From NCBI RefSeq assembly GCF_000967915.1, contig NC_022549.1, positions 794,366 through 858,365 on the forward strand: a stretch of 64,000 nucleotides of DNA. Direction: 5' to 3'. The first letter of the stretch is position 1, and each line of letters starts with the position of its first letter. The position numbers and the translations under genes are program-made. The notes below the pieces were generated by a model, which worked only from the letters and a program-made list of their open reading frames with translations, was not told the origin of the DNA and did no database searches. Below, in pieces: positions 15,622 to 33,209 of this stretch. This DNA comes from Paracholeplasma brassicae. GTDB lineage: Bacteria > Bacillota_I > Bacilli_A > Acholeplasmatales > UBA5453.

Positions 15622-15699
15622 TGTGTTGTCCTCACTTTCATTTTTTAATATGGCCGACTCGAAAAATAGTTAGTGATAATATATATAAGTATATATATA

Positions 15700-16068: not shown

Positions 16069-17015
16069 GCGGTCATTTTAACCCCTTTCACTTTTGGTAG
16101 TGCTTTGTATTTTTCTTTCATGTTCAAACGGTTGAAGTATTGCATATCTTCTTGATATACACAAGGATAGAACCAAACTTTCTTATCGACTAGTTTAAAG
16201 TTACTCGAATCGATAATTTCAACTTTATAGGATTTAATTTTCCAACCCTTTATATGAAATCGGATTTTTCCTGTTTGTAACCAATATTGGTAATCAAAGC
16301 CCTTTTTAACTTTTGGTTCATGATAACCTTTTAGCATTTGCATGATTGCGATATCGTTTTTTGGTAGTTGTGAAATAAAGAAGAATAAATCGATACCCTG
16401 ATGTCTTTGAGTTCCCATCGCCGCAACCATGGGCAAAACTTCATCATTATATGATTTTTTAGCGTTATTACGTTGCTGATACTTTGTCAACATTTCTTCA
16501 TATACGATAATATTAAAGCGATCAGAATCAAACTGTCCGACTTGTACACCGTCGACAAAATAGTCACTCGGATTAAATATCTGATGATAATAATAAGGCG
16601 TGCCATCGGTGTCTGTTCTAGCTGTTTCCATTAAGTCGGTCGTTAGTGAACATTTACCCGTTCGATAAGCATAATCCATCATTACGTGATAAGTACAGGT
16701 TGATTTTCCACTGCCTGCAGGTCCGTAGATATACTGTGGTCCCATTTCTAATAATGGTATTTGCTCAATTTCTAGCTGTTCTAATCGATAGGTTTTAATG
16801 TCCCACCAAATCCATATCATATGTAAAGGGAACGTACTATATCGCATGAACCGAGTAGTTAAATCAAGTACGTCGGAAAATGATTTGAGAAGCAATTTAA
16901 ATAAACTCATAATTGATAAAAATATGTCATCAAATCGTCTTATGAACGTTTTTATGACTTTTTCGTATCTATCGATAAATCCGAATATTTTTAACTCATA
17001 TTTTTCAAAAGTCAT
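16065..17015 (-). CDS. Zot/pI-like phage assembly ATPase
   Basis: P-loop ATPase of 316 aa with Walker A GPAGSGKST at residues 98-106 and a hydrophobic strand ending in Glu-Glu (FNIIVYEEM) as the Walker B site. The N-terminal part has an amphipathic to hydrophobic stretch near 30-72 that could contact the membrane. This layout resembles the Zot/pI family, which drives extrusion of filamentous phages through the membrane, and the DNA-translocating ATPases of related viruses. It sits in the late operon among membrane proteins, as expected for a virion-assembly motor. The family match is judged by eye, not by a profile search. Confidence 0.75.
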   Translation of the reverse strand: MTFEKYELKIFGFIDRYEKVIKTFIRRFDDIFLSIMSLFKLLLKSFSDVLDLTTRFMRYSTFPLHMIWIWWDIKTYRLEQLEIEQIPLLEMGPQYIYGPAGSGKSTCTYHVMMDYAYRTGKCSLTTDLMETARTDTDGTPYYYHQIFNPSDYFVDGVQVGQFDSDRFNIIVYEEMLTKYQQRNNAKKSYNDEVLPMVAAMGTQRHQGIDLFFFISQLPKNDIAIMQMLKGYHEPKVKKGFDYQYWLQTGKIRFHIKGWKIKSYKVEIIDSSNFKLVDKKVWFYPCVYQEDMQYFNRLNMKEKYKALPKVKGVKMTA

Positions 17016-17024
17016 TGAAGCACC

Positions 17025-17252
17025 TCATATCTTAAGAAAACTTCTGATGTAAAACCAACAAAAAAGCAGTACGACGACAATAATAATAAAGAATAGAACA
17101 CCTTTGAAACTGGATGTTATTTCTTTAGCGTCTGTGATAACTCGTTTATAGCCTTTTAGTGCTGAAGCGGTCATAAAGATTGCTAATATAACAAGTACAC
17201 TGGGTACAATCCAATCGATTATACCCAGGATTTTATTGCCTAATTCAATCAT
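17025..17252 (-). CDS. Small two-helix membrane protein, candidate coat protein
   Basis: Protein of 75 aa with two hydrophobic helices (about 13-31 and 50-69) joined by a basic loop (ALKGYKRVITDAKE). Not recognised. Size, hydrophobicity and place in the late operon just before the ATPase gene fit a small structural membrane protein, as in filamentous phages and plasmaviruses. Ribosome site GCAGGTGC precedes the ATG. Confidence 0.75.
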   Translation of the reverse strand: MIELGNKILGIIDWIVPSVLVILAIFMTASALKGYKRVITDAKEITSSFKGVLFFIIIVVVLLFCWFYIRSFLKI

Positions 17253-17263
17253 ATTTGCACCTG

Positions 17264-19426: not shown

Positions 19427-19432
19427 CACTCC

Positions 19433-21037
19433 TTATTTTCTTTTCTTGTAAGTTCTTTTTCTTGCTGGTTTTTTATTGGTTGCTACTGAAACAGCAACAA
19501 TCAAAATTAAGCCGATTGATAATAAACCAATGATCATGATTTTGTTTGAACTGACAAAGTCAGTAAATCCATCTAAAAATGATTCATCAGGTGTAATAGT
19601 GATTTGGTCATCATCTGCCGTTTCTGTAACTGTAATCACAAAGTTATGAACACTTGATTGACCTGCACTATTTGACAAATTAAACCCCATATTGTAAACA
19701 CCTGGTGTTTCTTCATTGCCTGTGTATTCATCCAAGAAGAAATTAACGTTTGTGGTTCCTGTGACTTGGATTTGATTGGTTCGTTGTAATAATTCAATGA
19801 TTTGATTTTGTGTCAACTTCATTGGCGGGATTAAAACAAACGAAGAACCATTAACGATGTACCAAACACCAGGGATGTCATCACGCACGTCGATTGTGAC
19901 TGTGAACGTTGATTTATTGCCCTTGGTATCGGCAACTTCAAAAATAATTGAATAAGTGCCTACTCGGTTACCTTTGCCGGTGTAATTATCTTCTTTAACC
20001 GTTATGTATGCCGTACGGTTTCCGTCTTTTAAGTCATTGGCCGATAGATTCGCTTTGATTGTATCAACGGTTAAGACAGCTGTTGCGTCCTTGGTATATG
20101 CGTTTTGTCCCGTCCATGTTGGTGCGACGTCATCAACGACTTCAATTTGCTTTGTGAATGTTGATTTATTGCCTGAGTTATCAGCTACTTCGAAGACAAT
20201 ATCGTAAGTGCCTAGGTTTGTCTTGTTCGCTGTGTAATTATCTGATTTGATTGTGATTTTTGAGTTAGCTATCGTATCATAGTTATCTGATACGGTTAGT
20301 GAATTCTTAAATGAAGTAATATTGTACGTTTGGGTATAACTGATTTGAACCTTTGAGGTATTACCATTAATCACTGGTGCAGTAATGTCTGCAACCTGAA
20401 TATTAAATGTGAACTCTGATACGTTACCGGCTGAGTCTTCAACACCAAGTTTGACTGACCAAGTCCCCAGGACATTTTTATTAGTCGTGTAGTTATCAGT
20501 AATAATATAAATTTGGTCGGTTAAATCGCCATCGACGTTATCGTATACCTTGATATACTGCAAGAAGTGCGATAAAGGTTTAGCGTCTGATACGTTGGTT
20601 GCGAACGTTTCTTGACCGTTGAATCCGGGTCTAAGGTCGTTTGCAGTTACTTGCACTGCCCGTTTTGACATGGTTCCACCACTGTATGAAATGGTCATTT
20701 GTCCACCGGATTGATCCGCGAAAATCACTGATTGATATGTACCTGTAACTTTTACGTAATTTCCGCCGGTTTCATAATGAATCGATAAGTTGCCACCCGT
20801 GCCGAGTGTCACTTCAAATTGCGTAGCAGACATGACAGGTGACATATTATTGTTAGCGTCTAATAAATCAATTGGATTTGCTGAAGTAAACATTACACTG
20901 TCACTATTGTACGTTTGACCGCTATTTAGATCCATTAGGGTTAAATTGGCCGATGATGCATGTGTTACTGGTTTAGCTGTAATGAATACACCAAAGAACG
21001 CAATGAATAATAATAAGCCTTTAAACATTCGTTTCAT
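19433..21037 (-). CDS. Phage surface protein with Ig-like repeats
   Basis: Protein of 534 aa with a signal peptide (residues 1-27). Three clear Ig-like repeats of about 80 aa follow, each ending in a motif of the type DNYT...LGTYDIVFEVADNSGNKS, plus a more degenerate fourth. A single transmembrane helix (IMIIGLLSIGLILIVAVSV) and a very basic tail (KKPARKRTYKKRK) lie at the C-terminus. The repeats resemble the DUF5011/HYR-type folds of bacterial surface proteins. With the large protein downstream it probably forms the exposed, host-binding part of the particle. Ribosome site AGGAGGAAAAAAGAAAA precedes the ATG. Confidence 0.85.
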   Translation of the reverse strand: MKRMFKGLLLFIAFFGVFITAKPVTHASSANLTLMDLNSGQTYNSDSVMFTSANPIDLLDANNNMSPVMSATQFEVTLGTGGNLSIHYETGGNYVKVTGTYQSVIFADQSGGQMTISYSGGTMSKRAVQVTANDLRPGFNGQETFATNVSDAKPLSHFLQYIKVYDNVDGDLTDQIYIITDNYTTNKNVLGTWSVKLGVEDSAGNVSEFTFNIQVADITAPVINGNTSKVQISYTQTYNITSFKNSLTVSDNYDTIANSKITIKSDNYTANKTNLGTYDIVFEVADNSGNKSTFTKQIEVVDDVAPTWTGQNAYTKDATAVLTVDTIKANLSANDLKDGNRTAYITVKEDNYTGKGNRVGTYSIIFEVADTKGNKSTFTVTIDVRDDIPGVWYIVNGSSFVLIPPMKLTQNQIIELLQRTNQIQVTGTTNVNFFLDEYTGNEETPGVYNMGFNLSNSAGQSSVHNFVITVTETADDDQITITPDESFLDGFTDFVSSNKIMIIGLLSIGLILIVAVSVATNKKPARKRTYKKRK

Positions 21038-21052
21038 TTTTCTTTTTTCCTC

Positions 21053-21814
21053 CTAAAAATAAAGTTGTAAATACTCTTGAATGATTGAAACCGGTATTGA
21101 ATAAGAATAAACAAATTCATTACCTGAAGCAAAAGCCCCAAGCGTAGTCATACCGATTAAATTGCCTTTTCTATCAATCAATGCACCGCCTGATGAACCC
21201 TTTTGAATGGTTGCGTTTGATTTGATTGCTTCAAAAGGAAAATACTCAAGATCTTTTATCATCTCGATAAATACGCCTTGTTCAATTGCTCGTTCGCCTT
21301 TGGGATAACCGACTGAATGAACGACTGAACCGGGTTGCATTTCTAAGGTTGATATCACTGCCGGTTTGATTGATAGTTTTCTTGTTCTAAGTAATGCTAA
21401 ATCATAGAGATCAGATATGATTTCATAAGTATCATTTTCGACCATTGATATGGCCTCATATGTTGCGTTTGTATAATCGACTGCGACTATAGTTTTTAGA
21501 TCATAATCTTGATGTCTGATATTGTGATGATTCGTTATCAGATAACTGTAATTATCATCTTCGTATATGATGATGGCCGAACCAGTCGCATTTACTTTTT
21601 CGCCCTGGTCATTTTCATAAACAATGATTAATTTCATCACTGCCCTCGACGTGTAATAATTGAAATCATCATTGACAACTTCTTCAGTGATTACCTCATC
21701 AATTATCTCGAATTTCGATTCGCTCTGAGCGACTAAAAGAGGTAACCAAAATACCGATGATAATAGTGCTAAGATAAGAAGAAGTCTAAATTTCTTAAAT
21801 AGCCATCGAATCAT
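21053..21814 (-). CDS. Membrane-anchored trypsin-like serine protease
   Basis: S1-family protease of 253 aa with an N-terminal hydrophobic anchor (residues 10-29), so the catalytic part is outside the cell. The triad is visible: His97 (TNHHN), Asp138 (YDLALL) and Ser208 (KGSSGGALID). The fold elements look HtrA-like but there is no PDZ domain. It lies inside the late operon between the small membrane protein gene and the Ig-repeat gene. Likely roles are processing of phage surface proteins or attack on host surface proteins. No wall-degrading enzyme is present, as expected for a wall-less host. Confidence 0.88.
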   Translation of the reverse strand: MIRWLFKKFRLLLILALLSSVFWLPLLVAQSESKFEIIDEVITEEVVNDDFNYYTSRAVMKLIIVYENDQGEKVNATGSAIIIYEDDNYSYLITNHHNIRHQDYDLKTIVAVDYTNATYEAISMVENDTYEIISDLYDLALLRTRKLSIKPAVISTLEMQPGSVVHSVGYPKGERAIEQGVFIEMIKDLEYFPFEAIKSNATIQKGSSGGALIDRKGNLIGMTTLGAFASGNEFVYSYSIPVSIIQEYLQLYF

Positions 21815-21815
21815 C

Positions 21816-22067
21816 TTATTTTTTTAGTTTGAAAATCATTGTTGTCGCAACAATCGTCATAAGAATGACCGCAATTACAATCGCATAGAAATTCTGTGTT
21901 GAAACGTTGGTTTCAATTAAAAATGTGTATTGTTTGCTAAAGAATTCATGAACCGTTGTAAAAATGCCTGGTTCCTCCGGGATTGCAGTTGCACCAAATA
22001 AGAAAATCAATAGTGTGTACACCCCTAAGATAAATAATGCACTGATGATTACTTGTTTCAATTTCAT
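21816..22067 (-). CDS. Small two-helix membrane protein, first gene of the late operon
   Basis: Protein of 83 aa with two hydrophobic helices (about 5-28 and 60-80) separated by a polar loop of about 30 residues. The first helix may act as a signal sequence, leaving a short exported protein with one helix, as in filamentous-phage coat proteins. A very strong ribosome site (AAAGGAGG) fits a highly made structural protein. Not recognised by sequence. Confidence 0.75.
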   Translation of the reverse strand: MKLKQVIISALFILGVYTLLIFLFGATAIPEEPGIFTTVHEFFSKQYTFLIETNVSTQNFYAIVIAVILMTIVATTMIFKLKK

Positions 22068-22160
22068 TTTTTTAAAGCCTCCTTTTTCATTTATGCTTTT
22101 AAACTAACATGAATTTCAAGAATTTAAATTTTAGGCCGTATGTTTTTGTTAAAAAAAACG

Positions 22161-22181
22161 AAAAAAAAAGGCTTTCGCCTT
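22161..22181 (-). terminator. Leftward terminator left of the iteron block
   Basis: Arms AAGGC / GCCTT around TTTC. On the minus strand the hairpin is followed by a T run of about nine. It ends leftward transcription before the late operon. Because the early operon already stops at about 22637, this implies another leftward transcript starting in the non-coding block. Confidence 0.8.
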
Positions 22182-22362
22182 GTGATTTTCAAAAATCCAT
22201 ATTAATGTTTAGTACCGTCATAATTTTTTGAAAGATTAAATCCTTTGGTTCATGACCGCAAAAATAAAGTTCTAAGCGCTTTGATTAAACCCAACAAGTC
22301 AATTATCAGATAATGATTTCAAGCCCAAACGGTGTTGATTCTATTCGCCAAGTAACCTCGAA

Positions 22363-22386
22363 CGACCCGAAACGTGTATCGGGGCG
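22363..22386. repeat. Hairpin in the candidate origin
   Basis: CGACCCGA and TCGGGGCG with an 8-base spacer. It could be a protein-binding palindrome or a single-strand initiation hairpin. Confidence 0.45.
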
Positions 22387-22570
22387 TAACCATTACTAAC
22401 TCTTTTGACTTTATCTTTTCATCAAGACACAGAAAAAGCAAACAACTATCTACTGACTACGGGATCTAAAAGAAAAACAAGAAGTCATTTCGCTTCGAAC
22501 TACCTCTTGAATGCCTTAACTAATCGTATTCTATATACTCTTTTTTATTATTTTAAAAATCATTCCTATG

Positions 22571-22629
22571 CATAGCAACTTACGATTTCAACCATAGCAA
22601 CTTACGTATCATCAACATAGCAACTTACA
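22571..22629 (+). repeat. Three iterons, CATAGCAACTTACG
   Basis: Copies at 22571-22584 and 22593-22606 are identical; 22616-22629 differs only in the last base. The spacing is 22 and 23 bases, about two helical turns, so a bound protein would lie on one face of the DNA. This is the pattern of iterons recognised by winged-helix replication initiators. Confidence 0.8.
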
Positions 22630-22636
22630 TTAAACT

Positions 22637-22702
22637 AAGAAAAAAGAAAACACCCAAATCATTTACATTTCTAAAAAAAGTTAGAATGTAAGATTTGAGT
22701 GC
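22637..22702 (-). terminator. Leftward terminator of the prophage early operon
   Basis: Long imperfect stem: CACCCAAATC...TTTACATTTCTAA on one side and TTAGAATGTAA-GATTTGAGTG on the other. On the minus strand it is followed by TTTTCTTTTTT. It lies 72 bases past the stop of the Rep-like gene. Confidence 0.8.
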
Positions 22703-22773
22703 TAAGGAGAGAGCCATTTTTAGTTGTTTTTAAATGCCTAAATAACGACTCTAGGTCGTTTGTTTATATTCGC

Positions 22774-23517
22774 TTAGCTAATCCAATCCGGATTAACTCG
22801 CTCGATATCAAGCAACTTATTGAGGTCGCCTAATAGTGAGCTTCTACGCTCTGATGTGATCTTGTTTTCGGTTGCTTCTATGATTTGGTCTAAATCAATT
22901 GGTTCTTGGTTCGTATATTTAGCAAATTGATTTGCAACATAACTGTTATATTGTGTTCTGGTTGTCTTAATGTCTTCGATTCTAGCCTCATTAATCAGTT
23001 GTATGACTAAGTCAGGATTATCAATTAGTGTCATTGCACGTTGCAAAGCAAAACGACGTTCTCTCGAACGTTTATTATATTTCTTATATGTTTTATCTTT
23101 TGGCATAGCTCTAAAAAGGTCTTTTAGTTGACCTGTATTTAGTTCGACATATCTTTGAGTTAAACCACCGTTTGGATTGTCGTCATGGTCAACTAATGCA
23201 CCACCAGCGCCGACATAGTATCGTTTGCTGATGACTCCGATTTGAACTGCGTTTCTAATCGCTTTTTGAACCGTTGAGACAGTTACGTTAAATAGCTTAG
23301 CTAAACTTGTGTTTAGTTCATAAACTCTTTCCAGCGTATTCTTATCTTTGTTTTTCGGGTTTAGAAAATGATAAGTAAATCTATGTATGATTTTAACAGT
23401 CGTATCAATATTTGGGTTAGCATAGAATGTGTCCATATCTCTATTGTGATAGAGCATATCAAAACCATCTAGTTTTAGGTTTGATTGTTTGAAGTAAACA
23501 TTTTCTTTTCTTGCCAT
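22774..23517 (-). CDS. Winged-helix protein, candidate replication initiator
   Basis: Protein of 247 aa. A helix-turn-helix is visible at about residues 70-98 (SLAKLFNVTVSTVQKAIRNA), followed by a wing-like segment (GVISKRYYVGAGGAL) and a basic helical region (KKYNKRSRERRFALQRAM). The layout recalls winged-helix plasmid replication proteins and regulators. There is no HUH motif or ATPase site, so a rolling-circle nickase is not supported. It is the last gene of the early operon, with its iteron-like sites just downstream. Ribosome site GGAGGGTTAGCC precedes the ATG. Initiator is the preferred reading; a transcription regulator is possible. Confidence 0.7.
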   Translation of the reverse strand: MARKENVYFKQSNLKLDGFDMLYHNRDMDTFYANPNIDTTVKIIHRFTYHFLNPKNKDKNTLERVYELNTSLAKLFNVTVSTVQKAIRNAVQIGVISKRYYVGAGGALVDHDDNPNGGLTQRYVELNTGQLKDLFRAMPKDKTYKKYNKRSRERRFALQRAMTLIDNPDLVIQLINEARIEDIKTTRTQYNSYVANQFAKYTNQEPIDLDQIIEATENKITSERRSSLLGDLNKLLDIERVNPDWIS

Positions 23518-23530
23518 GGCTAACCCTCCT

Positions 23531-23902
23531 TTACTTTTTCATGAACAATTCCTTGTTATGCTTTTTCTCAGCTAATCTTTCTTTTTCGAATAGAATTCGG
23601 TTCTTGATATGATTCACAATTTTATTTGTGTTCGTAATATTTTTCTTTTTGAAGTCTTTGTAAGTTTTAATCAGATAGCTTAAACCAGGCATTGTGCCTT
23701 TCTTGATTATTGCTAAGTAGATGATCACACCATTGATTAATTCTATATCATCATTGATGTATTTCTCACGCAATATCGCAACGTTTTTGAGGCTGATTTC
23801 CTCTTCTTGGTTGTTTCTAAACTTGAAAGCGTCATTGACAATATCAAACGGGCTTAAATTGATTAGTATGTCAGTCAAGTTGATGTCCTGGTTATTTGTC
23901 AT
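23531..23902 (-). CDS. Small early phage protein
   Basis: Protein of about 123 aa starting MTNNQDINLTDIL; not recognised. It is hydrophilic and mostly helical, with a lysine-rich second half (TYKDFKKKNITNTNKIVNHIKNR) that may bind nucleic acid. The start at 23902 is chosen because ATGAGG lies 9 bases upstream; two ATGs further upstream are too close to it. It follows the preceding gene without a gap, so translation is coupled, and lies directly before the Rep-like gene. Confidence 0.65.
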   Translation of the reverse strand: MTNNQDINLTDILINLSPFDIVNDAFKFRNNQEEEISLKNVAILREKYINDDIELINGVIIYLAIIKKGTMPGLSYLIKTYKDFKKKNITNTNKIVNHIKNRILFEKERLAEKKHNKELFMKK

Positions 23903-24083
23903 AGCCATGAACCTCATTAAGTTTAGTTAATAGATCATTCAGTTTCAATACTTCTAAACTGTGATAAACACGTTTTGAAATGTAATCAGATATCGCAATT
24001 AAATGCATCATCTTTTCGAGTTTATTATACTCACTAATATGATACATAATTAGCGTTTTTAGTGTTTCAATAGAAATCTTCAT
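23892..24083 (-). CDS. Small early phage protein with shared leader
   Basis: Protein of 63 aa starting MKISIETLKTLIMYHISEY; not recognised, helical and leucine/isoleucine-rich, possibly a small regulator. The start at 24083 is fixed by the leader AAAGGATTGCTAAA directly before the ATG; the frame is open for 27 codons upstream but has no ribosome site there. The leader is shared with other genes of this operon. Confidence 0.65.
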   Translation of the reverse strand: MKISIETLKTLIMYHISEYNKLEKMMHLIAISDYISKRVYHSLEVLKLNDLLTKLNEVHGYDK

Positions 24084-24153
24084 TTTAGCAATCCTTTCTA
24101 TTTGATATTTAGTTTTGACTATCTCATCAGTATCAGGAGTCAATCTCTGATAG

Positions 24154-24177
24154 ACAAGCCCCAAGGTTAAGGCTTGT
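24154..24177. repeat. Short hairpin between early genes
   Basis: Perfect 7-base arms ACAAGCC / GGCTTGT with a 10-base loop, between the 82-aa gene and the leader of the 63-aa gene. No T run on either strand, so it is more likely a transcript structure than a terminator. Confidence 0.5.
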
Positions 24178-24182
24178 TTCGA

Positions 24183-24431
24183 TTAAAATGGTAAGTCTGA
24201 TGTTAAATGCTTATCTAATTCTCTATAGAGGTTATTTAGTGTGTAGTGTCTACCTTGTAATTCTTCAATATCAAGTTCACGACCATATACGAAATGAAAT
24301 CCAATGCCCTGGGTGATTTCTCTACAATTTTCAATTTCAAGCTTGATGATTTGAATCTTTGCCCTTAGACGCTCTAATTTGCCCATTGATTTAATGTGCT
24401 TATCAAATTCTATCGCTCTGATCTCATTCAT
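24183..24431 (-). CDS. Small early phage protein, coiled coil
   Basis: Protein of 82 aa, not recognised. Residues 10-40 (KHIKSMGKLERLRAKIQIIK) have a heptad-like pattern typical of a coiled coil. Its ATG overlaps the stop of the gene before it by 4 bases and there is no strong ribosome site, so it depends on translational coupling. Confidence 0.65.
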   Translation of the reverse strand: MNEIRAIEFDKHIKSMGKLERLRAKIQIIKLEIENCREITQGIGFHFVYGRELDIEELQGRHYTLNNLYRELDKHLTSDLPF

Positions 24432-24766
24432 CTTTCAACAAACCATGTGTGAACTCTTGCGTTTACAGGGGCTTTTACATCATCATCAGTCAAATCATCT
24501 TCTTCGGTTAGAATCGTCAATTCTTTGTTAAACAAGTTCTCTAAAGCGATAAATAATTTAAGATTGATATTTACACCACTCACGTTTTTGAAAGTAAGTT
24601 GTCCTTTATCTACCTCATAATAGGCCGTAATTACTTGAGACTTGAATGTAAACATGAGTTCAATCTCATTTTGATCATATTTGAAATTGTAATGCTCAAT
24701 TTCGTGTTTGGTTTCTTTTTCTAACTTAGCGATTAAGTCTTTTTCAATACTCTTAACTGGTATCAT
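24428..24766 (-). CDS. Early phage protein with shared leader
   Basis: Protein of 112 aa, not recognised. A mixed alpha/beta N-terminal part (about 10-85) is followed by an acidic stretch (LTEEDDLTDDD) and a short basic end. The ATG is preceded by GAGGGATTGCTAGA, the leader shared in this operon. Tandem 24-25-bp repeats lie just upstream (24799-24878) and could control it. Confidence 0.65.
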   Translation of the reverse strand: MIPVKSIEKDLIAKLEKETKHEIEHYNFKYDQNEIELMFTFKSQVITAYYEVDKGQLTFKNVSGVNINLKLFIALENLFNKELTILTEEDDLTDDDVKAPVNARVHTWFVER

Positions 24767-24798
24767 TCTAGCAATCCCTCTCTTCAGTTATTTTTTAC

Positions 24799-24878
24799 AA
24801 CAATTATCCAGGTTATTTGTTCTAACAATTAATCGATTATTTGTTGCAACAATTTCACGTGATTTTGTTCTAACAATT
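24799..24878. repeat. Tandem repeats of 24-25 bp with palindromic ends
   Basis: Units begin AACAATT and end TTTGTT(G/C/T). Three full units cover 24799-24823, 24824-24847 and 24848-24871, and a partial fourth follows. Each unit starts with AACAA and ends near TTGTT, giving imperfect inverted ends. They lie between two early genes, upstream of the 112-aa gene, and could be operator sites or a second set of iterons. Confidence 0.7.
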
Positions 24879-25137
24879 AAATGTTTAATGTTCCGTTACC
24901 ATCAAGCTTTATTTTTACAAAAATGTGTGTGTGCCTCGAATCATCATAGTATTTGCCATCGAGCCTGAAATCATGTGCTATGCTTTTTTTACCCGTGTAA
25001 GACCCTTCATAGTTCCATGCTCTGATTTTCAAACCATTTGATAATGCAAATTGTAATGCCCTGTCAAGACTAGAGAAGAACTCTAGATAACGCCCGGTGG
25101 CATGCTCATATATCGTATATACATATTTATTTCTCAT
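24877..25137 (-). CDS. Early phage protein with shared leader
   Basis: Protein of 86 aa starting MRNKYVYTIYEHATGRYLEF; not recognised, predicted alpha/beta. The start at 25137 is chosen because GAAAGGATTGCTAGAA stands directly before it; an in-frame ATG 18 bases upstream lies before that ribosome site. A 66-base hairpin ends 2 bases before this leader. Confidence 0.65.
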   Translation of the reverse strand: MRNKYVYTIYEHATGRYLEFFSSLDRALQFALSNGLKIRAWNYEGSYTGKKSIAHDFRLDGKYYDDSRHTHIFVKIKLDGNGTLNI

Positions 25138-25152
25138 TTCTAGCAATCCTTT

Positions 25153-25218
25153 CATAGTGATTTATGCAGAGGACAATAGGATTGCTAGAAGCTAGTGTCC
25201 CCTGCATAACCCACTATG
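25153..25218 (-). promoter_or_regulatory. Long hairpin whose loop is complementary to early-gene leaders
   Basis: Outer arms CATAGTG / CACTATG and inner 15-base arms (25165-25179 with 25192-25206) enclose a 12-base loop. On the minus strand, which is the transcribed one, one of two mismatches becomes a G-U pair, so the fold is better as early-operon RNA. The loop reads CUUCUAGCAAUC, complementary over 11 bases to the leaders (GAUUGCUAGAA) of the genes starting at 25137 and 24766, and over 8 to that at 24083. It could block or regulate their ribosome sites. Confidence 0.65.
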
Positions 25219-25432
25219 ATGGCGGGTTTTTTCGATATCTGTATTTCCGGTATTCGATATCGTATTTTATCTTGTTCAATTCTCCCTTGGTAAATCCCCC
25301 ATGGTTAGAGAGCATGAACCTATCAGCTGTTTGTTGATCTCGAATGAGTTCAATCACTTTTTTATAAATCCGGTATGGTCCATAATTTGGGTACTCATTT
25401 ACCAGGATGTTTTTTATTGTAAAAAATGACAT
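25214..25432 (-). CDS. First small protein of the prophage early operon
   Basis: Protein of 72 aa starting MSFFTIKNILVNEYPNYGPY; not recognised. It is basic, ending in an Arg/Lys/Tyr-rich tail (YRKYRYRKNPPS), which suggests nucleic-acid binding. The start at 25432 has GGAG 7 bases upstream; the frame is open for 10 more codons, but those lie in a perfect hairpin. Its leader GGAGTGATTGC partly matches the leader shared by the genes behind it. Confidence 0.65.
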   Translation of the reverse strand: MSFFTIKNILVNEYPNYGPYRIYKKVIELIRDQQTADRFMLSNHGGFTKGELNKIKYDIEYRKYRYRKNPPS

Positions 25433-25460
25433 GCAATCACTCCATTTCTTAGACTCCCCC

Positions 25461-25504
25461 ATGGTAGTTACATAACAACGTGCCGGAAGCTATGTAACTA
25501 CCAT
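25461..25504. repeat. Perfect 14-bp inverted repeat upstream of the early operon
   Basis: ATGGTAGTTACATA and TATGTAACTACCAT enclose a 16-base loop (ACAACGTGCCGGAAGC). No T run follows on either strand, so it is not a terminator. GAAGCTA spans the loop and right arm here and also in the hairpin at 25153-25218, so the two may be bound by the same factor. Confidence 0.75.
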
Positions 25505-25510
25505 TGAGTG

Positions 25511-25545
25511 CTAAAAAACAAAAAGCACCATTACAATGAATGGTG
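25511..25545 (-). terminator. Leftward terminator or attenuator at the right prophage end
   Basis: Arms CACCATT / AATGGTG with a 6-base loop; on the minus strand the tail is CTTTTTGTTTTTT. It either keeps out chromosomal transcription from the right or attenuates the early operon, whose promoter was not found with confidence. Confidence 0.7.
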
Positions 25546-25605
25546 TCGGGAGTTAAAAATTTTATGACGTCGGCACCCATTCAACTTGATTAATTGGGTG
25601 ATGGA

Positions 25606-25650
25606 CTTCTAAGCCGTCGGTCGGGGGTTCGAATCCCTCTTGCAACGCCA
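25606..25650 (+). repeat. attR core: copy of the tRNA-Arg 3' end
   Basis: Perfect 45-bp copy of 13992-14036, from the anticodon loop to CCA. The D-arm and 5' half are missing, so it is not a tRNA gene. It marks the right end of the prophage. Confidence 0.93.
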
Positions 25651-25670
25651 TTTTGATATTTATTAATGCT
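25649..25670 (+). repeat. 22-bp direct repeat, left copy
   Basis: CATTTTGATATTTATTAATG plus CT begins at the CCA end of attR and is identical to 32931-32952. The two copies flank the restriction-modification genes. Confidence 0.88.
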
Positions 25671-25692
25671 GCCTAAAAGGGCGGCATTTTTA
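25667..25692 (+). terminator. Terminator that originally followed tRNA-Arg
   Basis: Arms GCTGCC / GGCGGC (one G-U) with a T-rich tail, 16 bases after the CCA copy. A related hairpin stands after the right copy of the 22-bp repeat. Confidence 0.8.
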
Positions 25693-25813
25693 TTTTTATA
25701 CCACCGATTATGATTTATTTAATTTATACCTCAATTATATACTAAAGATTGATATTTGTAGTTAGGCCAGTGGAGTACAAATATAATAAAATTTACTAAT
25801 TTTCTATAATTAT

Positions 25814-25832
25814 AACTAATAAACAATTAGTT
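25814..25832. promoter_or_regulatory. Palindrome upstream of hsdR
   Basis: Perfect arms AACTAAT / ATTAGTT around AAACA, 12 bases upstream of the hsdR -35 box. A possible operator. Confidence 0.45.
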
Positions 25833-25844
25833 TACTGTTAATTC

Positions 25845-25873
25845 TTTCAAAAAACTCATAATAATGCTATAAT
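25845..25873 (+). promoter_or_regulatory. Promoter of the hsd operon
   Basis: TTTCAA, 17 bases, TATAAT, with an extended -10 (TGCTATAAT). The leader to hsdR is about 80 bases. Confidence 0.7.
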
Positions 25874-25958
25874 ATAGGAAATATGTGTTCGATGAAAATG
25901 CAAATAAATAATTGATTATAAAATAAGTTTAAATGTATTAAATAGGGGTGAAATGAAT

Positions 25959-28271
25959 ATGAAAAAATTAACAGAAGAAGATGTTAAATTTAGGTATATT
26001 GATCCAGCAATTGAAAACATTGGTTGGAGCAAAACTCAAATCAACAAAGAATATTACTTTACGGATGGTCAAATAAAAGTATCAGGAAAAAAAGTAAGAA
26101 GGGCAAGAGGCAAAAAGGCTGATTATCTTTTGAAGAGTAAACACGGAGAAATCCCACTAGCAGTCATTGAAGCAAAAGATTTAACCCAAAGTGTTGGTGC
26201 TGGTATGCAACAAGCAATTGAATATGCGCAAATACTGGATATTCCTTTTGCTTATTCATCTAATGGTAATGGCTTTTTAGAGCATGATTTTTTTACTGGG
26301 CAAGAAAGAGAACTCAAATTGGATGAGTTTCCATCGGAATCTGAGCTTTGGGACAGGTATATTAAAGGAAAAGGATTTAATAATGAACAAGAAGAAATCA
26401 TTTCTGAACCTTATTATTATGCACCATTTAATACGAAGAGTCCTAGGTACTATCAAAGAGTTGCGATTCAAAGAACAGTAGAAACAATCGCTAAGGGCCA
26501 AAAAAGAATATTACTTGTTATGGCTACAGGAACAGGTAAAACATACACTGCATTCCAAATCATTCATAGACTTTGGAAACAAAGAAAAGTAAAAAGAGTT
26601 TTATATTTGGCAGATAGAAATATATTAATCGATCAAACGATGCAACAAGATTTTAAACCTTTTGAAGAGGTAATGACCAAAATCAAGGGTAAAGAATTAG
26701 ACAGTGCTTATGAAATATATATGAGTTTATATCATCAACTTGCAGGCGATGAGAATGAAGAACCATTTAGAGAATTTAAAAAAGACTTTTTCGATTTAAT
26801 TTTAGTTGATGAAGCACATCGTGGTAGTGCAAAAGAGGATTCACAGTGGCGTAAGATTTTAGAATATTTTTCACCAGCAATTCAAATTGGTATGACTGCA
26901 ACGCCTAAAGAAACAAAATACATAAGTAATATTGATTATTTTGGTGAGCCTGTTTATACCTATAGTTTAAAACAAGGTATCGATGATGGTTTCTTAGCGC
27001 CTTATAAAGTGATTCGTATTAACTTAGATAAAGATTTAGAAGGTTGGAGACCATATAAAGGACAAATGGATATGTATGGTCAAGAAATTGAAGACCGTGA
27101 GTATGGTTCTAAAGACTTTGACAAAAAGTTAATCATAGATGATAGAACTAAAGAAGTAGCTAAAAGAATCACCAAGTGGCTACATGACAATGATAGATTC
27201 AGTAAAACTATCATCTTTTGTGTAGATATCGATCATGCTGAAAGAATGAGACAAGCACTTGTTAATGAAAATACGGATTTAGTCAAAGAAAACGATAAAT
27301 ATATCATGCGAATAACTGGTGATAATGATTATGGTAAATCGCAATTAGATTATTTCATTGATCCTTTTGAGAAATATCCAACGGTTGTTACAACATCTAA
27401 ATTATTAAGTACTGGTGTAGACGTTAAGACCGCTAGACTCATTGTTTTAGATAATAATATTAACTCAATGACTGAGTTCAAACAAATAATTGGTAGGGGA
27501 ACTAGGCTATATCCAGACCAAGAAAAATATTATTTTACAATCATGGACTTTAGAAACGTGACGCGATTATTTGCAGATGATGCTTTTGATGGTGATCCAG
27601 TGGCTATTTTTGAACCTAAAGATATTGATGACATCGAAGAACCAAAAGTTACACCGGTTGATGATGCAGATGATGAGTTTGTTGAACCAGTAGAAATCAT
27701 TGGCGACCATAAAAAATTTAGAGTTAATAATGTGGATGTCACTATATTAAGTGAGAGAGTTCAGTATTATGGTAATGACGGGAAATTAATTACCGAAAGT
27801 TTAGTTGACTATACCAAGAGAAATATTTTAAATGAATATGCGACCATGGATGAATTTATCCATATGTGGACTGAAGCAGAAAAGAAGACGGCAATTATAG
27901 AAGAATTATTTGAACGCGGTGTTTTTCTAGATGCTTTAAGAGATGAATCTAAAACAGATTATGATGATTTTGATTTGATTCTTCATATTGCATATGATAA
28001 AAAACCTTTAACCAAGTCTGAAAGAGTTAAGCATGTTAAAGATAGAGGTTATTTAGATAAATATAATGAAATATGTAGGGAAGTACTTTCTTCTTTATTA
28101 GAAAAATATATGGATGGCGGAATTAATGATTTAGAAGATACTAAAATACTTGAAACCCAACCCTTTAGTAATTTAGGTAGTCCGACAAGGATCGCTAAAT
28201 TATTTGGTGGTAGAACAAGTTATTTGTTAGCAGTACAAGAACTACAACAACAGCTATATAAAACAGCATAG
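25959..28271 (+). CDS. hsdR: Type I restriction enzyme R subunit HsdR
   Basis: Restriction and translocation subunit of the R2M2S complex. The nuclease domain at the N-terminus shows ADYLL and VIEAKD (the D...ExK pattern). The helicase domain has Walker A MATGTGKTYTA and Walker B LVDEAHRGS, with motif VI-like IIGRGTRLYPD further on. A C-terminal domain contacts the methylase. The EcoEI-like size (770 aa) is shorter than EcoKI HsdR. The ATG at 25959 is at better distance from GGGGTG than the ATG six bases upstream. It is first in an operon with hsdM and hsdS. Confidence 0.95.
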   Translation: MKKLTEEDVKFRYIDPAIENIGWSKTQINKEYYFTDGQIKVSGKKVRRARGKKADYLLKSKHGEIPLAVIEAKDLTQSVGAGMQQAIEYAQILDIPFAYSSNGNGFLEHDFFTGQERELKLDEFPSESELWDRYIKGKGFNNEQEEIISEPYYYAPFNTKSPRYYQRVAIQRTVETIAKGQKRILLVMATGTGKTYTAFQIIHRLWKQRKVKRVLYLADRNILIDQTMQQDFKPFEEVMTKIKGKELDSAYEIYMSLYHQLAGDENEEPFREFKKDFFDLILVDEAHRGSAKEDSQWRKILEYFSPAIQIGMTATPKETKYISNIDYFGEPVYTYSLKQGIDDGFLAPYKVIRINLDKDLEGWRPYKGQMDMYGQEIEDREYGSKDFDKKLIIDDRTKEVAKRITKWLHDNDRFSKTIIFCVDIDHAERMRQALVNENTDLVKENDKYIMRITGDNDYGKSQLDYFIDPFEKYPTVVTTSKLLSTGVDVKTARLIVLDNNINSMTEFKQIIGRGTRLYPDQEKYYFTIMDFRNVTRLFADDAFDGDPVAIFEPKDIDDIEEPKVTPVDDADDEFVEPVEIIGDHKKFRVNNVDVTILSERVQYYGNDGKLITESLVDYTKRNILNEYATMDEFIHMWTEAEKKTAIIEELFERGVFLDALRDESKTDYDDFDLILHIAYDKKPLTKSERVKHVKDRGYLDKYNEICREVLSSLLEKYMDGGINDLEDTKILETQPFSNLGSPTRIAKLFGGRTSYLLAVQELQQQLYKTA

Positions 28272-28283
28272 GAGTGAATTAAA

Positions 28284-29759
28284 TTGAGTTTAAATGGATT
28301 TGTAAAAACAATACAAAATATCATGCGTGTAGATAATGGTATTAATGGTGATGCTCAAAGAATTGAGCAAATGACATGGCTTTTATTTTTAAAAGTTTAT
28401 GATACAAAAGAAGAAGATTGGGAGTTTCACAATCCTAATTATGTATCAATTATTCCAGAAGACCTAAGATGGAGAAACTGGGCTGTTGATCATAAAGATG
28501 GTGAGTCAAAAACAGGTCAAGAATTGTTAGTCTTTATAAACAACGAACTATTTCCAACATTAAAAAATTTAGAGATTAATGAAAAAACACCTGTTAGACA
28601 AGCAATTGTTAAGGCAGTATTTGAGGATTCAAACCAGTACATGAAAGATGGGATTCAATTGCGTAAGGTTATTAATGTCATTGATGCCATTAATTTTGAT
28701 GATCATAAAGAAAAACATGCCTTTGGCGAAATTTATGAAACAGTCTTAAAAGATCTACAAAGTGCAGGTAATGCAGGTGAGTTTTATACACCACGAGCAG
28801 TAACTGATTTTATGGTACAAATGATCAAACCTATATTAGGTGAAAAAATAGCAGACTTTGCTTGTGGTACAGGTGGGTTTTTAACTTCAACGTTAAAAGA
28901 ATTAGAAAAACAAGTTAAAACAGCTGAAGATAAACGTTTATATGATGAAAGCGTATATGGTATTGAGAAAAAACCACTACCTTATTTACTGGCAATCACT
29001 AACATGTTAATTCATGATATTGATACCCCACAAATTATTCATGGAAACTCTTTAGAAAGAAATGTTAGAGAATATAAAGACCATGAAAAATTTGATGTTG
29101 TATTAATGAATCCCCCATATGGTGGTACTGAAAATGAAATTGTTAAAAGTAATTTCCCAGCAGATTTAAGAAGTAGTGAAACTGCCGATCTTTTTATGTC
29201 TGTCATTATGTATAGATTAAAGAAAAATGGTAGAGCTGCCGTTATTATTCCTGATGGTTTCTTATTTGGATCTGATGGAGCAAAAACTGAACTCAAGAAA
29301 AAGTTATTAACAGAATTTAATTTACACACAATTGTAAGACTACCTAAGAGTGTGTTTGCACCCTATACATCAATAACTACAAACATATTATTTTTTGATA
29401 ATGGATCTAAAACAAAGAATGTATGGTTCTATAGAGTGGATTTACCTGAAGGCTATAAAGCTTTCTCAAAAACAAGACCGATGCAATTAGATCACTTTAA
29501 AGATGCAATTTCATGGTGGGAAAATAGAGTAGAAATTAAAGATACTGATACTGATACATTCAAGGCTAAATGTTATACAGTAGAAGACTTAGTTAATAGA
29601 GATTATGATTTTGATTTATGTGGATATCCTACATTTGAAGAAGAGGTTTTATCTCCCGAAGAAACAATTAGACAATTTCACGAAAGAAGAAATGCTTTAA
29701 ATGCAAAGATAGATAAGAAAATCAAACAAATTGAAGAATTATTAGGTATCAAAGAATGA
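28284..29759 (+). CDS. hsdM: Type I DNA adenine methylase HsdM
   Basis: N6-adenine methyltransferase subunit. The SAM site is FACGTGGFL and the catalytic motif is NPPYGG, preceded by an HsdM N-terminal helical domain. It starts at TTG, with AGGAGTGAATTAAA upstream, and no better ATG is available. The length of 491 aa is normal. It overlaps hsdS by 4 bases (ATGA), so subunit synthesis is coupled. Confidence 0.95.
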   Translation: MSLNGFVKTIQNIMRVDNGINGDAQRIEQMTWLLFLKVYDTKEEDWEFHNPNYVSIIPEDLRWRNWAVDHKDGESKTGQELLVFINNELFPTLKNLEINEKTPVRQAIVKAVFEDSNQYMKDGIQLRKVINVIDAINFDDHKEKHAFGEIYETVLKDLQSAGNAGEFYTPRAVTDFMVQMIKPILGEKIADFACGTGGFLTSTLKELEKQVKTAEDKRLYDESVYGIEKKPLPYLLAITNMLIHDIDTPQIIHGNSLERNVREYKDHEKFDVVLMNPPYGGTENEIVKSNFPADLRSSETADLFMSVIMYRLKKNGRAAVIIPDGFLFGSDGAKTELKKKLLTEFNLHTIVRLPKSVFAPYTSITTNILFFDNGSKTKNVWFYRVDLPEGYKAFSKTRPMQLDHFKDAISWWENRVEIKDTDTDTFKAKCYTVEDLVNRDYDFDLCGYPTFEEEVLSPEETIRQFHERRNALNAKIDKKIKQIEELLGIKE

Positions 29760-31168
29760 TTGCAGAAAAGTTGAGAAAAGCAGTACTTAAGGCTGCTATG
29801 GAAGGAAAGTTATCTGAACAATTTGATAGGGATGGAAATGCAATTGATTTAATCAATCAAATAAAAAAAGACAGAGGTAGATTGTTATCTGAAAAAACAA
29901 TTAAATATTCTAAATTAAAAAACAAAAATGTTATAGATATAAATATTCCGAAAAACTGGGTAATCACTAACATAAATGAAATTGCATTTGTAACAAAACT
30001 TGCTGGATTTGAATATACAAAATATATTGCTAATAATCTAGTTGAAAGTGGAGTCCCGTTATTTAAAGGAAAAAATATTCAAAACGGAAAAATGAATCTT
30101 GAGTTTGAAAGTTATATTCCTAAGTTGGTATCTCAATTATTATCTAGAAGTAGATTAGATAGAAAGTGTTTATTAACACCATATGTAGGTACAATTGGGA
30201 ACATTGCTATTTTTGAAGCTGATTTTGAAGCTCATTTAGGTTCTAATGTTGGGAAGATAGAATTATTCAATCATTTTAGAAAAAATATATTAGAAGAGTA
30301 TTTATTATTTTTTTTAAGAAGCGAATATGGCGATGCCCAACTAAAAAGAAATAAAAAAGCTACCGCTCAAGAAAGTATTTCTATACAAGATATTAGGGAA
30401 GTTTCAGTCCCTATTCCTCCAATAGAAGAACAAAAACGTATTGTTGAAAAACTAGAGGTTTTGCTTGCAGAGATTGATAGGCTAGAACAAGATGAAAAAG
30501 CATTGAAAGATCTAGAAGTTAAATTTCCTGAAAAACTTAAGAATGCGATATTACGGAATGCAGTAAGTGGAAAATTGACTAACCAAAATTTAGAAGTGGA
30601 AACTACTGAAGATATTATTGTTTTACTGGAAAAAAAGAAGAATGAAAAAATTGAACTGATTAAAAGTTATAATAAGCAACCTTTTGATATTCCAGAAAAT
30701 TGGCGATGGATAAAAATAGGTGATTTGGGAACGATGGGAATGGGACAAACCTTATTAAAGAAAGATATGGTTGAAAAAGGTGATCCGGTTTATAGTGCAA
30801 CAATTTCAGATGATCCGTTAGGATATGTTAAGAAAGATAATAACAAACTTAAATTAACAAAAGGAGATTTTGTAATACCTGCACGCGGTGCTTCAATTGG
30901 TTATGTAAATTTAATAAAAGTAGATGAAGCTTCATCAACGCAAACGACTATGTATATAAAGAGTTATTTACCGTCCATAAGCAATTATATTTATTATTGT
31001 CTTTTGGGAATGAAAAAAGATGTATTTACCACTACAGGTACTGCTCAACCACAAATAACGGTAGGATTAACAAAAGAACAATTGATACCTCTTCCGCCAT
31101 TAGAAGAACAAAAACGTATAGTTGAAAAGTTAGATGAACTATTTAAAATTGATTTATTAAATACGTAG
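29756..31168 (+). CDS. hsdS: Type I specificity subunit HsdS
   Basis: Determines the bipartite target of the system. Two target-recognition domains (about residues 40-230 and 300-440) are each followed by the conserved segment PIPPIEEQKRIVEKLE or PLPPLEEQKRIVEKLD. The central coiled-coil repeat ends KLKNAILRNAVSGKL, and the N-terminus (KLRKAVLKAAMEGKL) carries the matching half-repeat, the circularly permuted layout usual for HsdS. The last repeat is cut short (KIDLLNT). It is 470 aa. The target sequence cannot be read from the protein. Confidence 0.93.
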   Translation: MIAEKLRKAVLKAAMEGKLSEQFDRDGNAIDLINQIKKDRGRLLSEKTIKYSKLKNKNVIDINIPKNWVITNINEIAFVTKLAGFEYTKYIANNLVESGVPLFKGKNIQNGKMNLEFESYIPKLVSQLLSRSRLDRKCLLTPYVGTIGNIAIFEADFEAHLGSNVGKIELFNHFRKNILEEYLLFFLRSEYGDAQLKRNKKATAQESISIQDIREVSVPIPPIEEQKRIVEKLEVLLAEIDRLEQDEKALKDLEVKFPEKLKNAILRNAVSGKLTNQNLEVETTEDIIVLLEKKKNEKIELIKSYNKQPFDIPENWRWIKIGDLGTMGMGQTLLKKDMVEKGDPVYSATISDDPLGYVKKDNNKLKLTKGDFVIPARGASIGYVNLIKVDEASSTQTTMYIKSYLPSISNYIYYCLLGMKKDVFTTTGTAQPQITVGLTKEQLIPLPPLEEQKRIVEKLDELFKIDLLNT

Positions 31169-31175
31169 GTGATAA

Positions 31176-32030
31176 ATGATGAATGTTATTGTAATTATTT
31201 TCACAACAATAAACTTTGTGTATCTATTATATTATCTGAATAAAATGATTAAACAAGGTAATTTCAAGAAGATAATGAAAAATGTTAACTTAAAGCAAAA
31301 ACAGGGTAATAAAATAATAGGAAAAGAAATAAACAAGATTCAATCTTTCATTGTTGCTATCATAACATTGATTTTTGGATTTGTTATTTCAATTCTTTCG
31401 ATTGCTCTAGCAACCTTAGCTATATGGTTGCCAGTGGTTATGGGAATTATTTATACTTGGCAGTTTGGCACTTTAATCTTCCTATCTATAATGATTTTAG
31501 TATCTATTCTTTGGACCACAATGATTCTTTATAATAAAGAAAAGATTCACGATAGTCAAGAAGCTGTTGTAAGAGAAACTTTAATGTTGTTATTTTGGTT
31601 TCAAATGGGGTTTTTGATTTACTTTTTAGGAGAAGGAAACTTGATGAGAATGATGGAGTTCATTTATTTGAATGCCTATTTCTTTAAAAATACATTTACT
31701 ATACTGTTTCCGATTATCTTGTTATCTAGTTTAATCTTAAATTTGTATTTATATATCCAAGATTTAAGAATAAAATTTATTAAAAATAGCATCTGGATAG
31801 TTAAGAGAAAAGATTTGATTCTAATATTTATTATATCTAGTTTTGTTGGTTTACTTTATATCACAGAAATTGATACATCTTTCATTAATGATGTTGAAAA
31901 ATTTAACAAAACACAAGATATATTAACGATGTTATTAACGGCAATATTAATACCTTTAATTTTCAATAAAATAAATAAGATTAATGATTCAAATAATATA
32001 GGAATCCAAGATAGTGATAAAAATAATTAA
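31176..32030 (+). CDS. Polytopic membrane protein linked to the hsd operon
   Basis: Protein of 284 aa, not recognised, with about seven hydrophobic segments (near residues 3-22, 48-75, 82-110, 130-148, 164-188, 206-224 and 240-262) and short charged loops. It begins 8 bases after hsdS with ribosome site TAGGTGATAA and is very A+T-rich like its neighbours. Sharing an operon with a restriction system suggests an accessory defence or cargo role, but nothing in the sequence proves it. Confidence 0.75.
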   Translation: MMNVIVIIFTTINFVYLLYYLNKMIKQGNFKKIMKNVNLKQKQGNKIIGKEINKIQSFIVAIITLIFGFVISILSIALATLAIWLPVVMGIIYTWQFGTLIFLSIMILVSILWTTMILYNKEKIHDSQEAVVRETLMLLFWFQMGFLIYFLGEGNLMRMMEFIYLNAYFFKNTFTILFPIILLSSLILNLYLYIQDLRIKFIKNSIWIVKRKDLILIFIISSFVGLLYITEIDTSFINDVEKFNKTQDILTMLLTAILIPLIFNKINKINDSNNIGIQDSDKNN

Positions 32031-32048
32031 AAAGGAAGTAAAGTGTAA

Positions 32049-32867
32049 ATGAGGAAACCTGAAAATAATAAGAATGAAAAGACTGAAGAAAAATATTTAA
32101 ATAAGAAATTAAAAGTTGAAATAGGAACTCTTGCATTGGCTGTAATATCGTTTCTATTTTCAGTGATAGTATCTTTTACAGCTAAAAATGCAGTACAAGA
32201 TATAAAAGTGGAATTTGAAAATACTATTTCAAATATCCAGGAACAATATCAAAGTCTAGAAAATCAGATAAATACAGTTCAAGAGCAATATTTAGAGTTA
32301 GAAAATATTATTAACCAACAACAAACTGTTGATGTCATTCAAGCTCGAGATAATGATGTTTTAATTAAAACGCCTGATGACAAATGGCTAGTTATACCAA
32401 TGATTGAAAAAGAAGATATCTCATTTGCCAATGAAATTATTGAAAAGCAATACAACAGTGGAGACATAGATCTTGAAAGAGTTGATATGTTTAATTATAA
32501 TAATGAAGATTGGAGCAATCGTGATGGATTTACATATACCTTACCATTTGTTTCATTTAATCAAAATAAAATGGTTAGCTTATACCAATTTATTACTAAG
32601 ATAGAATTGGAGTTTAAATTATATCATAGTAATAAAGTAGATTATCAATCTGAATTTTATGAATTGTATAATAATGAATTACAATATAAGTATTTAAATG
32701 TTTTTGAAAATATAATGCCAAACAAACAATTTGTTACAAACGAAATTATAACTCAAAACGGAATAGAAGATATTAAACTTACGGTTATTATAACTTTTGA
32801 TATTGGAGAAAACATTTTCTCGATTCCTTATACTTTTGATGATTTTATTTATGTTAATGAAGCTTAG
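32049..32867 (+). CDS. Anchored coiled-coil protein linked to the hsd operon
   Basis: Protein of 272 aa, not recognised. A charged N-terminus (EKTEEKYLNKKLK) is followed by one transmembrane helix (about 28-46), then a coiled coil of two similar units (NIQEQYQSLENQI and TVQEQYLELENII), and a C-terminal globular domain of about 180 aa. It follows the polytopic protein gene by 18 bases and is probably its partner. It lies at the end of the operon, just before the 22-bp repeat. Confidence 0.72.
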   Translation: MRKPENNKNEKTEEKYLNKKLKVEIGTLALAVISFLFSVIVSFTAKNAVQDIKVEFENTISNIQEQYQSLENQINTVQEQYLELENIINQQQTVDVIQARDNDVLIKTPDDKWLVIPMIEKEDISFANEIIEKQYNSGDIDLERVDMFNYNNEDWSNRDGFTYTLPFVSFNQNKMVSLYQFITKIELEFKLYHSNKVDYQSEFYELYNNELQYKYLNVFENIMPNKQFVTNEIITQNGIEDIKLTVIITFDIGENIFSIPYTFDDFIYVNEA

Positions 32868-32930
32868 AAATTCTTGAAGCATAATCAACACAAACCTATA
32901 AAAGAATGTAGCATTTCATTTACAGCAAGA

Positions 32931-32952
32931 CATTTTGATATTTATTAATGCT
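32931..32952 (+). repeat. 22-bp direct repeat, right copy
   Basis: Identical to 25649-25670. The bases just before it (AGCAAGA) also recall the tRNA end GCAACGC. The two copies bound a 7.3-kb block with the hsd genes and the two membrane-protein genes. Confidence 0.88.
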
Positions 32953-32977
32953 ACCGTAAAAGGTAGCATTTTTTTTT
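32949..32977 (+). terminator. Terminator of the hsd-membrane operon
   Basis: Arms TGCTACC / GGTAGCA with a 6-base loop and nine T residues. It is homologous in layout to the hairpin at 25667-25692. Confidence 0.9.
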
Positions 32978-33109: not shown

Positions 33110-33209
33110 AAAGGCTATTCGAGATTTTATGGCTTTTTAATCCGAGATGTTTAAAGGCTATTCGAGATTTCGTGCCTTTTTTGAAAACAGGTATAAAGGC
33201 TATTCGAGT
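33110..33209 (+). repeat. Three spaced repeats, TAAAGGCTATTCGAG
   Basis: Copies begin at 33110, 33153 and 33194 (periods 43 and 41 bases). The first two continue with ATTT and then reach a GGCTTTT or GCCTTTTTT, making terminator-like hairpins with the AAAGGC start. They lie in a gene-free stretch (32978-33271), just past the 3' end of the recombinase remnant, which is read leftwards. Confidence 0.75.

Follow-up and report, generated by a model that had tools for sequence, protein, structure and literature searches.

Two membrane-protein genes behind a type I restriction operon in a small tRNA-Arg island as candidate accessory defence modules

The type I restriction-modification operon of the window (the whole stretch of 64,000 nucleotides that was analysed) is the cargo of a small mobile island at a tRNA-Arg gene and ends with two membrane-protein genes, ORF A and ORF B, whose relatives recur near several defence systems. 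We give about even chances to a reading of A and B as accessory defence modules that are located in the membrane, unrelated to each other and exchangeable one by one, placed in operon with the restriction genes and carried by an island without a recognised recombinase. An accessory defence role for the two genes is in itself probable, and their association with defence is good. The island with its common ends is a firmer and less expected result than the role of A and B. Genomes and inspected loci are referred to by G- and L-numbers, G000 being the genome of the window.

The operon lies on the forward strand and begins with hsdR (25953-28271; Pfam PF04851, PF08463 and PF04313; PADLOC REase_I), followed by hsdM, which has a TTG start (28284-29759; PF02384 at 1.3e-67 and PF12161; PADLOC MTase_I), and hsdS, where PF01420 is matched over two stretches (29756-31168). 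The HsdR, HsdM and HsdS subunits that a type I system requires are all present with the expected domains according to Pfam and PADLOC; a type I system would also have ATP-dependent restriction and methylation activity. ORF A (31176-32030, 284 aa) and ORF B (32049-32867, 272 aa) follow on the same strand with gaps of 7 nt between hsdS and A and 18 nt between A and B, and an AGG-type sequence resembling a ribosome-binding site was noticed by eye 5' of both starts. The first forward-strand terminator-like site 3' of ORF B is a hairpin at 32947-32970, to the right of the island. Four terminator-like sites were found in the scan compared with 2.4 in shuffles, and promoter-like sites occurred at chance level (42 compared with 48.6), some of them near ORF A. 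The original prediction had placed two membrane-protein genes a few bases behind hsdS and ahead of a terminator, and this layout was borne out; from it, hsdR, hsdM, hsdS, A and B are likely to be co-transcribed as a single transcript. Both genes are more than chance ORFs, since homologues of each were found and the pairwise dN/dS was 0.20 for A and about 0.18 for B, where the dS of 1.6 is near saturation. Judging by this ratio, ORF A is under purifying selection.

ORF A encodes a polytopic protein, proposed earlier to have seven helices. A simple hydropathy scan gives six transmembrane segments in A itself, and among 11 members of the family seven segments were counted in three (L015, L016 and L039, by a hydropathy and charge script), six in seven and five in one. 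The odd loops and C-tail of L015, L016 and L039 hold 27, 30 and 19 K/R residues respectively and the even side 3, 1 and 1, with loops of at least 70 aa excluded from this count. The charge pattern thus fits about seven transmembrane segments, and a topology with the N-terminus outside and the C-terminus inside is predicted. The copy of A in G052 stops about 15 residues earlier than that of the window, which suggests that the tail is dispensable. A structure model of A was useless (pLDDT 45), and comparison by sequence with solved structures gained nothing.

No credible family was found for A in Pfam, NCBIfam or PHROGs, with scores far under the cut-offs displayed for it, and neither A nor B matched any of 5027 PADLOC models at an E-value of 1; a PycTM-like identity of A was ruled out on the PADLOC result. 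A polytopic protein such as A could belong to a known transporter or channel family from which it has diverged too far to be recognised, and single members among the 11 touch Claudin_2 (3.2e-4) and TauE (0.005) in Pfam. We consider this highly improbable because no match is common to more than two of the 11 members, the sole Pfam match common to more than one being DUF6264 (two members, best 0.19), and because A itself falls so far under the cut-offs.

ORF B was described from the outset as an anchored protein, in agreement with the single transmembrane segment that we observed at residues 25-43, behind a K/R-rich N-terminus. Its C-terminal part holds 16 K/R against 40 D/E residues, and from these counts and the positive-inside rule the C-terminus is placed outside. 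The protein is therefore predicted to be single-pass, with its basic N-terminus inside and a helical stalk and an acidic beta domain outside. An AlphaFold2 model built from four sequences (mean pLDDT 68) contains a low-confidence helix at residues 10-89 and a better supported beta-rich domain at about 100-271; two of the three intact homologues have a shorter stalk. The best scores of B (Pfam 0.0066, over the helix only; PHROGs 0.009; NCBIfam 0.014) are not credible, and no Pfam match was common to more than one of the four B relatives scanned singly. Structural matches of the C-terminal domain are weak (Foldseek best E 0.015) and look like generic beta sandwiches; the best VIA-align match (Z 7.1, rmsd 3.5, 107 aligned residues) falls in a range often seen with models that lack a clear match. 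No defence family is named in the fold list, which is not evidence of absence. The expectation that neither A nor B belongs to a known family was thus upheld across Pfam, NCBIfam, PHROGs and PADLOC, and also when relatives were scanned singly against Pfam.

The island spans 25651-32932 on the forward strand (7.28 kb, the first of two stacked elements), and its recognised genes are hsdR, hsdM, hsdS, A and B. The window has a tRNA-Arg(tct) gene at 13960-14036 and a copy of the 3' part of this gene (92%) at 25603-25661, and the left end of the island lies directly behind that copy. The right end is a 27-nt sequence at 32907-32933 on the forward strand, the last T of which is already part of the next segment. 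The operon is flanked by a 47-nt direct repeat (85%), the left copy at 25649-25695 (forward strand) holding a terminator-like hairpin at 25665-25688 and the right copy at 32931-32977 holding the hairpin behind ORF B. In a search of 88 genomes, G000 included, the 27-mer was found at eight exact places in six genomes and with two mismatches at one place in a seventh; the reversed pattern was not found, and the 27-mer occurs once in the window compared with no occurrence in 100 shuffles. The location inside an island, as first suggested, is confirmed by this discrete segment with a tRNA copy on its left and a common right end. This entire region is absent by BLAST from G004, G003 and G001 of the same genus, and in G003 (L074) a terminator-like hairpin and the gene found at window position 35198 come, in this order, after the tRNA.

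A second island of this kind was found in G052, a genome of another family in the same order, behind its own tRNA-Arg(tct) (L014 4214-4290) and with the same 27-nt end. It carries hsdRMS and A (90% identical), with a Shedu-like gene (SduA_C, 2.1e-11) in the place of B. The flank to the right of this island, from L014 position 11820, matches G028 at 92.6% from L135 position 628, and the tRNA-Arg gene of G028 lies at L135 553-629, so that the match begins at the tRNA end. As the flank is continuous with the tRNA-Arg end in G028, the G052 island is a discrete insertion. Between the window and G052, DNA identity is 85.4% in hsdR, 87.6% in hsdM, 57.3% in hsdS and 92.6% in A, and A together with the 3' end of hsdS forms one block of 91.9%. 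The dS is 0.88 for hsdR, 0.85 for hsdM and 0.23 for A, with dN/dS of 0.06, 0.04 and 0.20 respectively. From identity and dS, the 3' end of hsdS and A appear to share a more recent common history than hsdR and hsdM. HsdM relatives at an E-value of 1e-150 were found in three of 160 genomes of the order, namely G000, G052 and G037 (62%), where the contig ends just behind hsdM.

Several other structures were observed at these island sites. G028 has two tandem island right ends (L135 8601-8627 and 13512-13538) behind a single tRNA-Arg, the second segment carrying an ABC-transporter-like set by eye. The tRNA-Arg island of G022 (L130 11353-12345) looks internally deleted by eye, with a 211-aa gene followed by DNA resembling the end of the Shedu-like gene of G052 and then by the 27-mer. 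In the window, a provirus-like block lies at 13989-25650, between tRNA-Arg(tct) and the copy of its 3' part. This block has an integrase-type gene (14490-15347, PF00589), a P-loop protein (16065-17015) which may resemble the Zot-type ATPases of filamentous phages, large secreted-type proteins, and a product that is protease-like by eye (21053-21814). A second element (32933 to about 35060) is stacked behind the first and holds a 69-aa gene, hsp20 and a nucleotidyltransferase-like gene. The window matches G028 (L132) at 94.2% from position 32931, starting there from the end of a tRNA-Leu gene. Three 14-nt copies of AAAGGCTATTCGAG, spaced about 43 nt apart, lie at 33110-33208, close to the left end of this element, and similar copies were seen in L014, L132 and L135.

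Repeats spaced by 32 nt, one to three in number, precede the 27-mer at six of the eight ends examined; none were found at the mismatch limits used at the second G028 end and at the end in the window, nor in five mononucleotide shuffles. They differ from the left repeats seen. No recombinase or integrase gene was found among the ORFs of 25651-32932 or of L014 4291-11821, and no PF00589 match lies inside the islands. G000 has six such matches and G052, a 30-contig draft, has two, both with orthologues in G000 and G028. A tyrosine-recombinase island would have its own integrase gene, and a Tn7-like element would have matching repeats at both ends as well as TnsABC/TniQ genes, none of which were noticed by eye. 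The island end was also sought among viral contigs, plasmids and phages, without result. A broader proposal, which we regard as doubtful, is that these are members of an undescribed island family lacking a recognised recombinase, which would insert precisely behind a tRNA gene or the tRNA-like right end of a resident island, stack in tandem, share the 27-nt end and the 32-nt subterminal repeats, and move defence cargo between bacterial families. In this proposal A and B would serve as 'plug-in' membrane arms of general use: islands and prophages would fit them to nuclease-based systems of whatever type, so that DNA cleavage is joined by a membrane response.

ORF A and ORF B are distributed independently. 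Relatives of A were found in 8 of 199 genomes of relatives, 10 of 395 of the class, 11 of 160 of the order and 9 of 392 of the phylum, in overlapping sets and with weak matches counted. B was sought in fewer genomes and was found in 4 of the 199 and 5 of the 395, one weak match being included in each count, and a pattern-based scan of an 84,980-species collection gave four loci on contigs that are, by their length, the same as those of G132, G192, G306 and G282. Weak matches with internal stops (E 1e-6 to 1e-3; A in G222 and G484, B in G170 and G182) stand outside the counts of genomic context given below. Searches for B in viral contigs, for the A of the window as a single sequence in viral contigs, for both in plasmids, and for A and the HExxH protein described below in phages led nowhere. 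Only G000 had both genes, in the 199-genome and 395-genome samples alike, which rules out A and B as a conserved pair; the claim of a pair made at the outset therefore fails, the gene after A in G052 being the Shedu-like one. That A and B make up a single two-component system, intact only here, would suit two adjacent, co-directional genes, but we judge it very improbable given their joint presence in G000 only, the G052 island of like kind, which has A but lacks B, and the different, 83-aa hydrophobic protein that adjoins B in G132.

Known or candidate defence genes directly adjoin A at nine of the 15 inspected loci, the window included. The neighbour is HsdS in G000 and G052 (with SduA also in G052), and PycC with PycTM next in G155, G335, G253 and G259, where an HMM score was obtained for G155 and the others were assigned by eye from near-identical sequence; in G259, A is cut by the contig end. 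PDC-S02 is the neighbour in G149 (scored) and G147 (by eye), and a second copy of A in G253 is followed by a GajA-like gene (2.5e-29) and then a GajB-like gene (1.6e-10). As the four Pycsar loci resemble copies of a single prophage cassette, and those of G147 and G149 copies of another, the independent events linking A with defence number fewer than nine. As PycTM is encoded two genes after the A relative in G155, A stands alongside it and is not its replacement. No recognised defence neighbour was found at the other six loci (G028, G070, G022, G044 and the fragments in G015 and G010), where some neighbours in the first four were scanned. Since defence genes cluster, the adjacency of A to them may be co-residence only.

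The four intact B genes are each separated by at most two genes from a restriction-modification gene, and the type differs each time. B stands with the type I operon in the window; with an Eco57I/IIG-like methylase in G132, PDC-S61 and the 83-aa gene lying between; behind type III mod and res and then a PD-T7-5-like gene in G306; and ahead of an unknown gene, a type II restriction endonuclease and a methylase in G282. In G192, a distance of about 4.4 kb separates a broken B from genes that resemble type I subunits by eye. A small partner common to the B loci was ruled out, as the compared neighbours have no mutual BLAST match at 0.05. Three neighbours of A or B (L042 10792-11247, L044 6783-7418 and L022 10575-11960) carry a putative HEPN-like RX4H motif. 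Relatives of A and of B thus recur near other defence genes, where the original prediction had proposed to look for the pair, and neither a location mainly outside defence loci nor membership of a known transporter family was seen. A small control drew 79 ORFs from 11 of 12 arbitrary regions of 10 kb; these matched 27 PADLOC families at 1e-6, a figure that counts families and not ORFs matched and in which the clustering of defence genes on mobile elements remains. None of these families, many helicase-type by name, matched more than two ORFs, and strong matches were mad3 (2.2e-30, two ORFs), mad2 (3.5e-22) and REase_II (6.4e-21).

The shared operon, the 3' position in a type I island and the recurrence of B with four restriction-modification types would also fit a role in which A and/or B tether the restriction complex at the membrane, as subunits and not separate effectors, so that it meets DNA at its entry site. 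EcoKI is membrane-associated, and our literature search on this association found no report. The tether is nevertheless improbable, since A relatives stand with systems other than restriction-modification (Pycsar, Gabija-like) and the large domain of B is predicted outside, away from the enzyme.

At prophage-type loci, A occupies a variable slot that follows the gene of a small HExxH protein, and it may be ordinary phage cargo there. This gene recurs in 24 viral loci, and A follows it in six of the 18 with usable downstream sequence (the other six being L098, L102, L108, L112, L114 and L120), other genes taking its place elsewhere. The six include the near-duplicate pairs L109/L110 and L115/L116 and represent four distinct cases. 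A as a partner of the HExxH protein, which L016-L019 had suggested, was ruled out since A follows in just these six. No relative of the HExxH protein was found in G000, in a search without a known positive. The gene marks a variable cargo slot in L016-L019, L038, L039, L050-L055 and L098-L120, where the cargo includes Pycsar, a HEC-06 match, DUF3800 (PF12686) and, by eye, nucleotidyltransferase-like genes; the protein matching PADLOC HEC-06 (6.7e-33) lies in the slot on a plasmid record of Tenericutes bacterium MO-XQ.

Such slots raise the possibility that A and B are general mobile-element cargo without a role in immunity (e.g. lysogeny, stress or surface functions) and were collected by cargo slots. 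The viral loci, the six A loci without a recognised defence neighbour, and the G+C of A and B (0.25, compared with 0.29-0.33 for hsdR-hsdM), which fits a separate origin, are in keeping with it. We consider it rather unlikely, because two restriction islands have little other cargo and carry A 7-10 nt after hsdS, and all four intact B genes stand with restriction-modification genes.

If A and B do serve as accessory defence modules, A is somewhat favoured to be a membrane-acting effector or exclusion factor. With seven transmembrane segments and K/R-rich inner loops, it could act as an effector or barrier in the cytoplasmic membrane, either through membrane depolarisation and abortive infection or through exclusion of phage DNA entry, and would thereby provide a further layer where restriction fails. 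In known anti-phage systems, the transmembrane proteins are believed to serve as suicide effectors, according to the part of Rousset et al. (2022, PMC9122126) available to us. Because its partner systems already own a nuclease or membrane effector, A is more likely an autonomous or auxiliary module than a missing part. For B, the link with restriction-modification and the predicted outer domain suggest an extracytoplasmic sensor or blocker at the outer face of the cell, recruited by restriction-modification operons; on the same assumption of a defence role, this assignment is tentative.

If A and B protect, restriction systems would carry their own membrane-located second line, and two unlabelled gene families could be used as bait for further defence loci in this group. 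In addition, module function and island movement are directly testable, thanks to precisely placed island ends and to the natural replacement of B by a Shedu-like gene behind hsdRMS-A.

The operon resembles other type I systems in its complete hsdR, hsdM and hsdS but differs in the two extra membrane-protein genes directly 3' of hsdS; membrane-protein genes behind hsdS are not known as a standard accessory of type I systems. Defence operons also encode other small membrane proteins, among them PycTM and further 2TM effectors of Pycsar and CBASS, whereas A has about seven transmembrane segments and no PADLOC effector match at an E-value of 1. No description of such accessory membrane genes or islands appeared in the titles and abstract beginnings of the literature matches listed. 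Hitcher elements or helper-dependent islands (PMC11389934) are similar in being small mobile islands that would need an enzyme from elsewhere, while the 27-nt end, the 32-nt subterminal repeats and the end-to-end stacking at tRNA genes found here are not described in the part of that paper available to us. Furthermore, as far as the accessible part of PMC9122126 allows comparison, the A relatives in a variable prophage-type slot beside Pycsar resemble the defence hotspots of prophages and satellites, whereas here the slot is marked by the HExxH gene and the carrier in the window is an island and not a prophage.
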